A stretch of DNA of 64,000 bases, from the NCBI GenBank assembly GCA_037179385.1, contig CM074190.1:4664284-4728283 (forward strand), given 5' to 3'. A program made the translations under genes and the position numbers. This DNA is from Holothuria scabra (lineage: Eukaryota > Echinodermata > Holothuroidea > Aspidochirotida > Holothuriidae). Below, piece by piece: positions 3,368-63,843 of this stretch (its first letter is position 1; every line of letters begins with the position of its first letter). Below the pieces are notes generated by a model, which searched no databases, was not told where the DNA came from, and worked only from the letters and a program-made list of their open reading frames with translations.

Positions 3368-3591
3368 CGATTTTCCAACTAATCAAAATTAGGTGAACTT
3401 AACTAACATTCGTTTCTATTAACCTAGGTTTTTAAAATTTTCAGTTAAAAATATCACTTTTGAATTGGGCAATACTTTGCGCATGTCTTCAATTTGAGGG
3501 GAAGTCGTTTTTTGGTAAATCGTCATCCATCTCGGATAACATATATTATTTTTGTCACTTCCGCATTCTGGTCCCGGCGAGATGTTTATGC

Positions 3592-3626
3592 CATGGAAGT
3601 ACTACCTCGGAGGTAGTACTTCCATG
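3592..3626. mobile_element. 35-bp palindromic hairpin element, copy 1, with 7-bp flanking repeats
   Basis: Perfect palindrome with 17-base arms (CATGGAAGTACTACCTC) around a single central G. The 7 bases directly before it (TTTATGC, 3585-3591) and directly after it (TTTATAC, 3627-3633) match at 6 of 7 positions, as a target-site duplication would. Identical in sequence to the copy at 12177. Confidence 0.75.
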
Positions 3627-3633
3627 TTTATAC

Positions 3634-7797: not shown

Positions 7798-8102
7798 CCC
7801 AGCCAACATGCCCAGCTGGGCCCCAACTGGGTTTCAGCTGGGCTACTTGCTGGGCCCCAGCTGGGGCCCATTCGTGTTTGTCAGGTGTTCCCATGTGGGG
7901 CCCAACTGGGCTAGCCTTCCCCAGCTGAAACCCAGCTGTGCCCCGCTTCAATAACTGAAGCCTAGCTGGGTTTAAGCTGGGAAAGGCTAGCCCATTTGGG
8001 CCCCACATTGGAACACCTGACAAACACGAATGGGCCCAGCTGGGGCCCAGCAAGTAGCCCAGCTGAAACCCAGTTGGGGCCCAGCTGGGCATGTTGGCTG
8101 GG
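7798..8102. mobile_element. 305-bp GC-rich palindrome (foldback element)
   Basis: Begins CCCAGCCAACATGCCCAGCT and ends with its complement. The two halves of about 150 bases pair almost throughout and carry many internal CCCAGCTGGG-type palindromes. Flanks AAGCATTA (7789-7796) and AAGCAATA (8103-8110) match at 7 of 8 bases, suggesting a target duplication, although one A separates the left copy from the arm. Open frames across it merely read the palindrome. Confidence 0.75.
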
Positions 8103-10734
8103 AAGCAATATTTTGTTCCATAGCAATACATACAAAATCATACTATGGCACGTTTACACTTCAGAAAATCTAGAATTGTTTTTTTCTCGGCAGAATAACA
8201 ATTTTCTGAATTTTACTATTTTGACGAAATGTTCCATCTCGCCAAAATTTAAATTTTCTAAATTTTGTCATTTTGACAAGATGTTCTAACTTAGCAAGAT
8301 GACAATTTTCCGAATTTTGTCATGATGACTTCGCGTTAAAATGTAAATGTTCCTAAAGATCGTCCGTATAAAAACATGCGAAAGACTTTTGTCACCTAGA
8401 CACGTACATTTAATCATCAAAATGTCAATTTTAAGGAAATTGTCATTTTGTCGTGCAAGCAGCTAACTAATTTATTACTACCCTTGTCAGCCAGATCGCG
8501 AATGTTATGCGGCGCCCTTTCAGAATTAAGTCTCTTGCAGATAAATTCCGAAGCCAAGGGACGATCAGCAATTGCATGGAATACAGCTATCCATAGTACA
8601 GGTATAATGCCAACAAAAAAAAAAAAAAAAATCAGGAAATAGCCGTAGAAAGGAACGAAAACTTCCCGCTAGACTTTTGTGAAAAATGGAAATCCCTCTG
8701 CCTATGAGGAGTCTGCTACACCTAAGAGGATATAAGTCTCCTGCATAAAGGTCATTTTTCACAAGCGTCTTTTTCTGGCAGTGTGGCGACGCTCCTTTCG
8801 TTACTACTTCAATGTTGGCGTTGTAGAAATCCGTTGCATCTCCTGTTTAATTATTGGGGGACAGTTTTTTACCGTTCTCCGTAATCACCAGCTGTTTAGG
8901 CTGGCTACGCCATACCTAATGGGTGCCCTTATACTGACAAGGGCATGAAAACTAACAATCGATAGCCTTCTATGGAGGAGCACGTCAATCACGGGATTTG
9001 GGAAGGTAATGAGCACAATTTGTTAATTTATAAACCTGTATACTCGTTGGTCACGAGCACGCACTATAGCCAAATAGGTACATGAAACATGAGGTGGACG
9101 AGTGGTTTGAAGTTACTTTACAAATCGTGGTCAATCTCAAATAGTTCCCTGTTATCCTCTGCTTTTTCCAATTAGTGCGCAGGACGATTGTTTGCTTCAA
9201 AAAAGCAGAGCAATTAATTTCCTTATCTTTGTGTATGCTTGGGTGACTTCCAGATGCGTCTGGTAATTGATACCAACGTCGGAGTCCCTGTCATTTCTCC
9301 CGATTTCCCGGGTATGTAGTCAATAGAGCTTTAAAGCAAATGTCTCCTTTATGATTTAAACTTAATCCTGTAATGTTACGCCCGGTACTCTGTGTGGACA
9401 TAAGGGACCGTGGTCCAGTCTGGTATACTTTCCTTCTAGGGAAAATTGTTTTCTTCGGAGACTCTTTGTACGTGTATGACAACGTTGTGTTCGACTTCGG
9501 CTCTGCAGCCACACTTTATTTCGCATACAAACTTTTACAAAATCCCTAAATTCCCAAGTTTTTCTTCTACGAAACCCAACTCGACGTAATGTTTTATAAT
9601 TTGAATACAATATTAAAGCTTTTCCGGTGAAACCTAAAAATGTTTGACCCCCCTCAAACAACTGGATTTAGTTACGATCAACCAGACTAGATTGTTGGAG
9701 ATTCAGGTTTGTTGCCCGCTACCGTACCCATTGGAACAATTCTGGTGACAACATTTTAGGCTTGGACGTTAACATGCGAAAGTTTGCGTATGGCTTAACT
9801 TGACAGTTATGGAGTTAGATTTCAGAACCTAAAATCTGTTATGTCTTCACCTTTCACTGTTTGAAGATGTTATACTTCAAAGCTGATTCTAGAGTAACCC
9901 TTTAAATGAGCAAAAACTGTGGAGGGATGCACCAGCGAAAACAGTGCATAGTGTTGCAGTGTTGACATTTCTTTTGTTCACTTTATATTATTTCTTAATA
10001 ACTTATCAGATAGTTTACGGTTTGCTTAGTGATACTGATGGCATGGAAGTTCACAATTAATACTTCCAAGATGAACCTGGGGCATATTACAAACTGATTG
10101 AAATAAAAATTGAAATAAAAGTGCGAAATCAGAGAATAATGTAAGCCATATGTGTTCCTCTGCCGACATCACAGATTTGCATACTTTGATCATGTTTATT
10201 CATAATTAAGTGGGAAACAGAAATCAAATTGTAAAATCACCATTTTTGGATGGATTTTGATTAGAATTGTGCCTGCCTTCTGCGTTTTGAATATTTATTC
10301 TTATATCAAATAACCAAATGCTATTCCCCTGTTATTTGCAGGAAACCTGTAAGGAGTCCCTGCCTGTAACATTGACTTAAGAGGTTTTCACACGTTGATG
10401 TAAAACCGCAAATGTCTTCAGTTCTAAGCATACGACACTATTGCTTCAAAAGAATGTGCTGTGTGAAATATTGCATATAATGCAGCCCATAAAAATTTTC
10501 TCCCCAATACTGTAGCCTCCCAATTTATAAGCTTTGCTTACTATTTCAACCCGAATTAAACTACTTTGCTTGTATCAATGGTATATCAGTCTTACTTTTA
10601 GTGGTAAAATGAATGGATCTTGTTAGTTTCAGATAGTCATATAATAAAATTCTTTATACGTCTCAGTTATTGAAAAATATGTTTAGATTGTCGCCATGCA
10701 AAAGAGGGCAATTTTGTTAGTTAGCTAGATCAGG
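8103..10734. other. non-coding sequence, nothing recognised
   Basis: No coding family signature. Local short repeats with the words TTTTGTCATTTTGAC and ATTTTCTAAATTTT lie at about 8170-8330. Confidence 0.45.
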
Positions 10735-10815
10735 GAGTTGTCCCTGACAACTCCCTGGTTATATACTGTAGTTCAAATGAGGGAGTTGTCAGGGACGGAG
10801 ATCCAACCAGGGAAC
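10734..10815. repeat. short inverted repeat
   Basis: AGGGAGTTGTC-CCTGACAACTCCCT forms one short palindrome, and AGGGAGTTGTCAGGGAC follows. GGTCCTGACAACTCCCTG near 14832 carries the same word, next to GAGATCCAAC in both places, so this is a dispersed repeat end. Confidence 0.45.
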
Positions 10816-10929: not shown

Positions 10930-12740
10930 GGGGTGGCGCCAGGATTTGCCCGACAGGGGGCCAAGTTCCCCGACAGGGAGGGCCAGCATTTCGAGTACCC
11001 GACAAAGGGGATGAGTAAGTCCCAGTGGGACGTGATTTGGTAGAATCTGACGCGCGCGTAGCGCGCCGAAATTTTTGATTTTTTTCAACAAATATTTAAA
11101 AATCTGGAGTTTGTTTAGAAGAAAAAGTTTTTAAATAAAATTTGGCTTTTGCAAGGACCATTAAAAAGGTTGGGGTGTCTATTGAAAAACCTTCCCTTCA
11201 TAAAAATAAAAAACTCTTTTTGGGGTACGCATCTCATCGTACAATTGGGTCTAGGTACTAAGGCTTTCAGGCGAAACCGGAAACATTACGGGATATTAGC
11301 TTTAAGGAGACCCGTCATGACTACCACAGTTTTCGTGGAAAAACTGCGTTTCCCAATTATCGTACCCGACCACGGGTTCATTACTCCAATTAGCAGGGAC
11401 CGCGGAGACGGGGGGAAGCTAGGGGGGTTTAGTCCCCGCACTTTTTTGCTGTGGGCATTTTGGGCCGCTTAAAATTGCATTCATTTTATTGCACATGTTG
11501 GGCCTCTTCAATGATTAGCCCCCGCACTTCAAAATTGGCTCCGCGGCCTCTGATTAGCTGCTTCAATGAGCAGCAGATTTGATTACCATTCTGGTACAAT
11601 AGAAGCCCAACAACTTTGGGGTTCAAATAACAACTACCAACAAATCCTGAAATAAGTGCTGGCAAAAAGGGAGTCAAATTTTGAGATAATCTGCTATCAA
11701 ATGTCAACCTTGATGGTCATTTTCAAATGCTTAAATGGGCATATAATTAGTACTGAGAACAGTTCCTGACGAGATTGTTCTAAGGCTATTTTTTCTGACA
11801 TGATGTGCCCGAAAAAAGTTTCCCCTTTTTGAACGAAGATTTAAAAACTAACAGCTTATCAGATGGGAGAAATTTTAGAATTTTATGAAAAATTCGCTTT
11901 TTGGATAAGGTTACAATGACACTTTGGGGCTTTTTATTCAATGATATGCCTGTCAAGAGCAATTGTTGGAGCGATGAAGAGCGTTAAATTGGGTGTTTTA
12001 CTGTATGGAGTATCCATCGAAAATGAAAAAGTTTATCATTTTTAACAAATATTAGAGAATCTGAACGTTATATTGATGAAACCGTGTAATTTTATGACAG
12101 ATTTTGGGGGTTTATGGAAGAATCTGACCCTCTTATGAGAAAAATCAAGAAGGGGTGATTTGTAGTTTTGTTGGGGCATGGAAGTACTACCTCGGAGGTA
12201 GTACTTCCATGGTTGGGGTTTCTGAATGACATCATGGAGATTAAGGCCGTCGGGATTTTCCTCGCGGAAAAAGTTTGGCTTCCCATATATTTCAAGTTTT
12301 ATATTTTGTTTATTGACATATGGGAGTATTTCAATTTGGTAGGAGGCAGAATAGTCTATTTTGTGTGAAAAATATAATCCTGCCCGAAAAACTAACTAGA
12401 AAAGAACAGAAATTTTTGAAAGATTGAGAACCCCAGACAGAAACAAAGCAGTCTTTATTTTGACCTTTTTCCGCTTTAAAAATTTCACTTCACATTTCCC
12501 TCAAACGAAGAATAATTTGCAAACATGCATTGTCCTGCTGAATAATCTGTTCCACCAAAACACTATCAAAGCGGAGCGCCACAATAACTTGGCGCGGAGC
12601 GTAGAGAATTTTTTTAAAAAAAAATCTTACCCTCAGACAGCCGAAGGCTCCCCGACGAAACTGGATCTTCTCAACGACAGGGAAAGGACAGTCTTCCCCG
12701 ACGGGGACATGGCCCCTGGTTCCCCGCTGGTGCCACCCTT
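10930..12740. mobile_element. decayed 1.8-kb element with GGGTGGCRCCAG termini
   Basis: Left end GGGGTGGCGCCAGG (10930-10943) and right end CTGGTGCCACCCTT (12727-12740) are inverted copies; CCCGACAGGG-type words follow each end inward. No intact transposase was seen. The 35-bp hairpin at 12177 is nested inside. Confidence 0.45.
12177..12211. mobile_element. 35-bp palindromic hairpin element, copy 2, with perfect 7-bp flanking repeats
   Basis: Same 35 bases as the copy at 3592. It is directly abutted on the left by GTTGGGG (12170-12176) and on the right by GTTGGGG (12212-12218). The exact fit of element and duplication argues that the palindrome itself is the inserted unit. Confidence 0.82.
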
Positions 12741-17638: not shown

Positions 17639-60811
<43,173 letters not shown>

Positions 60812-63610: not shown

Positions 63611-63818
63611 AGACTTAGTCACTTACTTAACAGTATTCAGCACATATAAAGTCCACAGTTTCCACTCAAATTTACAACTGCACAGTGTGCATCCACTCTC
63701 ACTGCTTGCTAACTATTAAATGCTGACTGCTGTATACAACACACTGTTAAACTGGTACACTGCTTGCTTTCCTATACAGCTCAACACTGTGCATGTACCA
63801 TACAAAGACTCCTTTCAA

Positions 63819-63836: not shown

Positions 63837-63843
63837 CTTTCAA

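Follow-up and report, generated by a model that had tools for sequence, protein, structure and literature searches.

The 35-bp palindrome described here very probably consists of the outermost 17-18 bases of both ends of a transposon of about 4.4 kb, joined inside a 7-bp duplication like its own and left as a scar after the excision of this P-superfamily element. A common terminal inverted repeat (TIR), a common 7-bp duplication, the counts of the scar forms, a limit at base 20 of the element in the arms examined and transposase domains beside one TIR were directly observed. The window, that is the whole 64-kb stretch of DNA analyzed, corresponds to C12:4664284-4728283 of the 1.19-Gb assembly (31 contigs) in which the genome searches were performed. 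Three sites carrying such putative scars, called scars below, were read from the sequence of the window:

12170-12176, no strand assigned: left duplication, GTTGGGG
12177-12211, + strand: 35-bp scar with centre G, 17-18 tip bases per transposon end joined; its arms are the outer bases of the 34-bp TIR of elements L072-L075
12212-12218, no strand assigned: right duplication, GTTGGGG
3585-3591, no strand assigned: left duplication, TTTATGC
3592-3626, + strand: second 35-bp scar, identical to 12177-12211
3627-3633, no strand assigned: right duplication, TTTATAC (6/7)
63812-63818, no strand assigned: left duplication, CTTTCAA
63819-63836, no strand assigned: 18-bp scar CATGGAAGTACTTCCATG, a join at the 6-base microhomology AGTACT between two tips (from the sequence, a microhomology enumeration and the genome count)
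63837-63843, no strand assigned: right duplication, CTTTCAA (7/7)

Palindromes and the transposon that shares their arms

The 35-mer is laid out as two 17-base arms around one central base. Its expected number of occurrences in a shuffled window is 0, as compared to the two seen. The initial annotation had reported a 35-bp palindrome with abutting 7-bp repeats at two sites, and it is indeed present at both, between GTTGGGG and GTTGGGG and between TTTATGC and TTTATAC. A third relative in the window had been missed. It is a perfect palindrome of 18 bp, in which nine bases from the start of the arm are joined to their complement. We scanned the window for palindromes (arm of at least 6, loop of at most 6, more than 2 letters used) with a flush 7- or 8-bp repeat (at most one mismatch). 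Four sites were returned, corresponding to the two 35-mers, the 18-mer and an AT-rich 14-mer. In a Markov control of 100 simulated 64-kb sequences, 98 palindromes with an arm of at least 9 and a loop of at most 1 were obtained, a rate of about one palindrome of arm at least 9 per 64 kb, and flush repeats of at least 6/7 accompanied 2 of the 98. A Pfam search of six ORFs of the window returned no match at E 0.01.

Genome-wide, the exact 35-mer with a G or C centre was found in 322 copies, as compared to 0 for the same sequence written backwards. The flanks of 43 of these copies were inspected, 41 from the 50 listed places plus the two window copies. The flush 7-mers agreed at 7/7 in 29 copies, 6/7 in 8, 5/7 in 3, 4/7 in 2 and 1/7 in 1. 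Matches of at least 6/7 were therefore present in 37/43 copies, with 6/43 below this value, as compared to 16 of 1806 mismatched left/right pairs (7/7 in 1, 6/7 in 15). Reading the flush repeat as 4, 5, 6, 8, 9 or 10 bp gave an exact match in 0/43 copies. The 60-bp flanks of the 43 copies had no 16-mer in common between different copies, showing that the palindrome does not belong to a larger repeat at these places. The target 7-mer is itself palindromic: position 2 is T, and position 6 is A, in 76% of the 43 copies each. The initial annotation had viewed the palindromes as identical units in unrelated surroundings and their 7-bp repeats as resembling transposon target-site duplications. Both views are supported by these flanks. 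It had also proposed to look for extended flank sharing among copies and for an excess of flush 7-bp matches; the former was absent from the 43 copies and the latter was found.

Scar clustering, as expected from local hopping, was looked for on contigs 1-3 (contig 3 taken as 70 Mb), which contain 47 of the 50 listed copies. Three neighbours within 150 kb were observed against 1.4 expected, a value reached in 17% of simulations, which is no clear sign of clustering. The first ten bases of the arm, or the complement thereof, were matched twice in 21 sampled 10-kb segments of contig 1 (2454 N), and neither match was a scar. The 17-mer arm gave 10 single matches in prokaryote genome contigs and 0 in viral contigs; these matches were dropped, being no more than expected by chance across 257 Gb.

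The 17-base arm alone occurs 2179 times in the genome. It is the tip of a 34-bp TIR, CATGGAAGTACTACCTCGGAAGGAAATCCAACTT, which bounds elements of about 4.4 kb. On contig 1, four facing arm pairs about 4.4 kb apart (L072-L075) have identical 34-bp TIRs and are mutually 97.5-98.2% identical, with duplications TTCCTAC, ATTAAAG, CCCAAAG and TTCCCCA/TTCCCAA. The TIR is identical over 34 bp and 95% identical over 40 bp. A fifth element, of 5351 bp, has GTCTATT on both sides. It was tried as an autonomous copy and rejected, since it corresponds to the 4.4-kb element plus an extra ~965 bp (ORFs listed by eye). The full list of the exact 29-base tip contains 46 genome occurrences, distributed in 16 facing pairs and 14 lone tips. 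Thirteen pairs are spaced by 4.29-4.41 kb and the others by 4678, 5200 and 5351 bp. The five pairs fetched among these 16 showed identical 34-bp TIRs and 7-bp duplications matching at 7/7 in four cases and 6/7 in one; a duplication of the 7- or 8-bp size that characterizes the P superfamily was accordingly found, at 6/7 or better, in 5/5 full elements fetched. No recognized protein domain was detected in the ten ORFs tested from the 4.4-kb elements, one DUF match being below cut-off, and these copies are therefore probably non-autonomous. Locus L025 resembles the 3′ part of the element and appears to be a fragment.

Other repeats were seen in the window. A possible second scar family is represented at 10731-10757 by CAGGGAGTTGTC-CCT-GACAACTCCCTG, flanked by GCTAGAT and GTTATAT (5/7), and AGGGAGTTGTCAGGGAC is found close to it, at 10780-10796. 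Elsewhere, in the right flank of L061, a CAGGGAGTTGTC...GACAACTCCCAG unit sits between more copies of ATTACAT, the duplication of a 35-bp scar. Tandem arrays with similar units of ~145 bp (TGACCCCAAATGACCTTTGACC...) span window positions 30341-31869 (10.5 copies) and 47886-48901 (about 7 copies). An inverted repeat with 74-nt arms at 95% is located at 7810-8090 and overlaps CCCAGCTGGGC-type tandem units on both sides.

Junction forms and the probable depth of the cut

Genome-wide, the central base of the 35-bp form is G or C in 322 copies and A or T in 12. Base 18 of the TIR is a G, and a centre dominated by G/C is as predicted if this element base is retained. A 34-bp join was found in 22 copies and a 36-bp join (18 + 18 bases) in 0 copies, whereas the 18-bp form, CATGGAAGTACTTCCATG, has 292 exact copies. 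The exact forms sum to 648 (322 + 12 + 22 + 292), as compared to 30 element sites with the exact 29-base tip; the flanks behind this sum are those of 43 copies of the 35-bp G/C form, 0 of the 12 with an A/T centre, 2 of the 22 of 34 bp (both from one duplicated locus) and 20 of the 18-bp form, plus the 18-bp copy of the window.

A microhomology account of the 18-bp form was set down from the single window copy and enumerated before the genome search. The longest microhomology between two element tips is AGTACT, six bases, and the enumerated join at this position is precisely CATGGAAGTACTTCCATG. Among 20 fetched copies, which include two duplicate pairs, the flush repeat was 7/7 in 15, 6/7 in 1 and below 6/7 in 4. 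Mismatched pairs used as a control reached 6 or 7 matches in 10/380 cases.

Tail lengths of 17 to 22 bases were also enumerated. Only a tail of 20 bases sets its terminus (GA) in a 2-base microhomology giving 35 bp, and the centre is then G or C depending on which tail primes. From this property, we infer a stagger of about 20 bases; the position of the junctions indicates that the transposase likely cut about 20 bases inside the element. An 18-base tail with a CG microhomology was rejected as the source of the main form, because it predicts 34 bp, yet 22 such copies are found as compared to 322. Random 17+1 joins are ruled out by the predominance of G/C (322) over A/T (12) at the centre. The 18+17 bases may also have been retained by another route.

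Arms that do not continue into an exact 29-base tip represent 2133 of the 2179 occurrences, 46 doing so. Some of these 2133 arms could be mutated element ends; 0/34 examined is. Contig 1 has 52 unpaired arms, and the sample consisted of the first 34. The match to the TIR extended past base 20 in 0/34 cases and stopped after base 20 in 19, base 19 in 3, base 18 in 4 and base 17 in 8. The ends of all 34 junctions at element bases 17-20 would fit a deep staggered cut. The flanking 7-mer recurred at 6/7 or better within the next 90 bases in 26/34 arms, as compared to 12.9% of 1100 swapped controls, and did not recur in the other 8/34. The pieces between the recurring 7-mers included mutated 35-mers, joins of 34, 32, 29 and 21 bp, and also joins lengthened to 37-40 bp by extra bases. 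Filler or extra bases were seen at the junctions in L083, L087 and L092.

Five of the 34 unpaired arms correspond to one copied scar, with the same duplication and the same mutation, and two more have common flanks. The copied scar is found with duplication CAAATAG at five places of contig 1 (L086, L099, L101, L102, L106) and was probably copied within another, larger repeat. Other scars are duplicated within larger repeats as well (L079/L091, L076/L077, L116/L123, L130/L131). Because of such copying, the counts exceed the number of independent events.

Excision followed by tail joining would proceed as follows. At each end of the element, the transposase would cleave the strand with the 3′ terminus at the duplication, and its cut in the opposite strand would fall about 20 bases further in. 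A 3′ element tail of about 20 bases would thus stay on each donor end. End joining would then align the tails by microhomology before trimming and filling. If the terminal GA of one tail paired with TC of the other, the 35-bp form with G or C at the centre would result, and pairing at AGTACT would give the 18-bp form. As the element moves on, each end-joined departure would leave a scar, and scars would come to outnumber elements. Their excess would be explained because scars accumulate with each end-joined excision, whereas the number of elements need not.

We also considered that the scars, together with extreme internal deletions, arose after excision by interrupted copying from the sister chromatid (gap repair) rather than by tail joining. 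The filler or extra bases mentioned above would suit this origin, as would the accessible part of a study in Drosophila, where most wild-type P{wa} repair products result from incomplete copying followed by end joining (PMC2895639). However, gap repair predicts variable retained lengths, whereas none of the 34 unpaired arms examined passes base 20, and 36-bp joins are absent. As the general origin of the scars, gap repair appears very unlikely. It may nevertheless account for a minority of copies even if the tail-joining account is right.

Transposase domains beside the terminal repeat

When the genome was searched with PF21787, the RNase H family of P transposases, 31 matches were obtained. 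One of them, C5:40367461-40367862, shares its strand with a lone perfect tip (C5:40362898) and lies 4.6 kb inward of it. This stretch (locus L133) begins with a perfect 34-bp TIR, and its similarity to the 4.4-kb element is 69% over the first 335 element bases, in which the TIR is counted. Two domains were identified in its ORFs:

L133 4248-5036, same strand as the TIR: ORF with PF21787 (1.9e-19, 70.8 bits, cut-off 24.6)
L133 6755-7075, same strand as the TIR: ORF with PF21788, the GTP-binding insertion (1.2e-6, 29.3 bits, cut-off 24.8)

The transposase domains are situated 4.2-7.0 kb from the perfect 34-bp TIR, and the RNase H domain with a GTP-binding insertion that characterizes the P superfamily was found at this one locus. 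No right TIR of L133 was found in the 18 kb read; the link of the TIR to a P transposase therefore rests on one locus. By arithmetic (46 tips, 31 matches, 1.19 Gb), a transposase neighbour within 5 kb of a tip has a probability of about 1% of occurring by chance. The remaining 30 PF21787 matches were compared with the TIR through the coordinates of the listed tips.

A similar arrangement, with an upstream ORF and a transposase, is observed in L019 (33% and 47% identity). A protein search with the transposase exon returned five relatives, all five with PF21787, and a PDB sequence search with the same exon returned no match. The upstream ORF of L133 shows weak matches to zf-AD and to RAG1_imp_bd (RAG1 importin-binding region), both below cut-off. 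No THAP domain was matched in seven L133 ORFs, tested as ORFs rather than as joined exons. In L133 (2118-2543) and L019 (1249-2019), an ORF with a CRLCG-type zinc motif precedes the P-type transposase ORFs, at the place where a THAP domain is expected. L133 also holds a copy of the 35-bp scar, with one arm mismatch, flanked by TTTAGAC. In the window, 55153-55712 and 57502-58067 are 77% and 68% similar to L133 2804-3384 and 3645-4272, respectively. From this similarity, the window may contain remnants of a long element related to L133, or of repeats nested therein. Finally, the P transposase match C1:34159739-34160089 is 4.5 kb from a 35-bp scar (C1:34164607-34164641), a proximity that could be due to chance or to a decayed family member.

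An origin of the scars from another superfamily of cut-and-paste elements, cutting with a similarly deep stagger, would be compatible with the lack of a recognized transposase in the ten ORFs of the 4.4-kb copies and with a P transposase copy having just one matching end. To our knowledge, no superfamily besides P has a stagger of 17-20 bases. A perfect 34-bp TIR with 69% terminal similarity ahead of the PF21787 and PF21788 domains, and, as in Galileo, 7-bp duplications whose target consensus is palindromic, also argue against this assignment, which we regard as even less probable than gap repair. The least probable of the explanations considered is that of the initial annotation, in which the 35-bp palindrome is itself mobile, as a minimal element moved in trans by the transposase of the family: it would account for 322 identical copies, most of the 43 examined having perfect 7-bp duplications and unrelated flanks, but the 18-bp form, devoid of half of each arm, is nearly as abundant with the same kind of duplication, further junction types exist, the centre base and the lengths track element bases 18-20, and a transposase could scarcely pair two ends across 35 bp of stiff DNA. 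On the present evidence, the 35 bp, presented at the outset as the inserted unit, rather appears to join both tips of an element of ~4.4 kb, which has the same TIR and 7-bp duplications of the same type, and was most likely left behind by excision. The data can be explained without movement in trans or hairpin integration, from which the 18-bp class, the central-base rule and the base-20 limit would not be expected. The class structure and the TIR identity speak against a short sequence as the transposed unit.

Significance and comparison with known systems

Beyond the reading of the palindromes as probable excision scars, we lean towards a broader interpretation. A P-superfamily transposon cutting about 20, and not 17, bases inside its ends would have left some 650 exact scars, more than twenty per surviving tip or pair, and the ultrashort palindromes would be its main visible trace. 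In these palindromes, microhomology end joining in the germline would be naturally recorded at sequence resolution, and two junctions predicted by the tail sequence would dominate the record. In repeat annotation, palindromes of this type could be entered as mini-MITEs or as tiny repeats of unknown nature; if the interpretation is true, they are donor-site records of departures. Each scar would preserve the insertion target and the repair junction, and hundreds of natural breaks with known ends would be readable from one genome. How far inside its ends an uncharacterized transposase cuts, and which end-joining route a non-model germline uses, could be tested from sequence alone. Scars would also allow counting the past transpositions of a family with few remaining copies.

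MITEs carry target duplications and transpose. Like MITEs and REP-like palindromic repeats, the present sequences are short, palindromic and dispersed. Unlike MITEs, they consist of the two tips without further internal sequence, and we interpret them as donor-site remnants. In the accessible part of the open-access literature, we found no report of natural genome-wide scar forms outnumbering their element. Excision footprints of P have been described in experiments on Drosophila, and 7-bp duplications are a known feature of Galileo.

According to the accessible part of PMC10983969, zebrafish Pdre2 / THAP9 is, like the element described here, a P-superfamily element outside insects with short TIRs beginning with CAT. 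It differs by its 13-bp TIRs and 8-bp duplications, and, in fly cells, zebrafish THAP9 left larger deletions of the flanks upon excision. Galileo, of the P superfamily, has 7-bp duplications with consensus GTANTAC (PMC2775673, PMC4168063). The duplication length and the palindromic target are shared with the present scars, in which T2 and A6 dominate. However, Galileo has long TIRs (575-610 bases in two of three tabulated copies, 10 in the third; PMC2775673), as compared to 34-40 bp here. With TIRs this short, the element was not filed as Galileo. In the accessible parts of the two Galileo papers, no scar class of this kind was met.

The closest parallel is with the P element of Drosophila melanogaster. 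P transposase makes a 17-bp staggered cleavage (PMC7776569), and excision leaves 17-base 3′ tails at the donor site, often joined at microhomologies, in products that retain the target duplication and parts of both tails (PMC2895639, in its accessible part, as for what follows). The footprints of the P{wa} assay resemble the scars described here, with the duplication on both sides and both tips in between. The tips start with CATG in both cases and joins occur at microhomologies within the tails. A table of mus308 mutant products contains one blunt join of both complete tails; such a full blunt join makes a 34-bp palindrome, a further likeness to the present scars. In contrast to the experimental breaks of Drosophila, with an 8-bp duplication and 17-base tails, the scars reported here are natural and genome-wide, with a 7-bp duplication and tails that would measure about 20 bases. 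Unlike the Drosophila P footprints, they are dominated by two exact junction forms.
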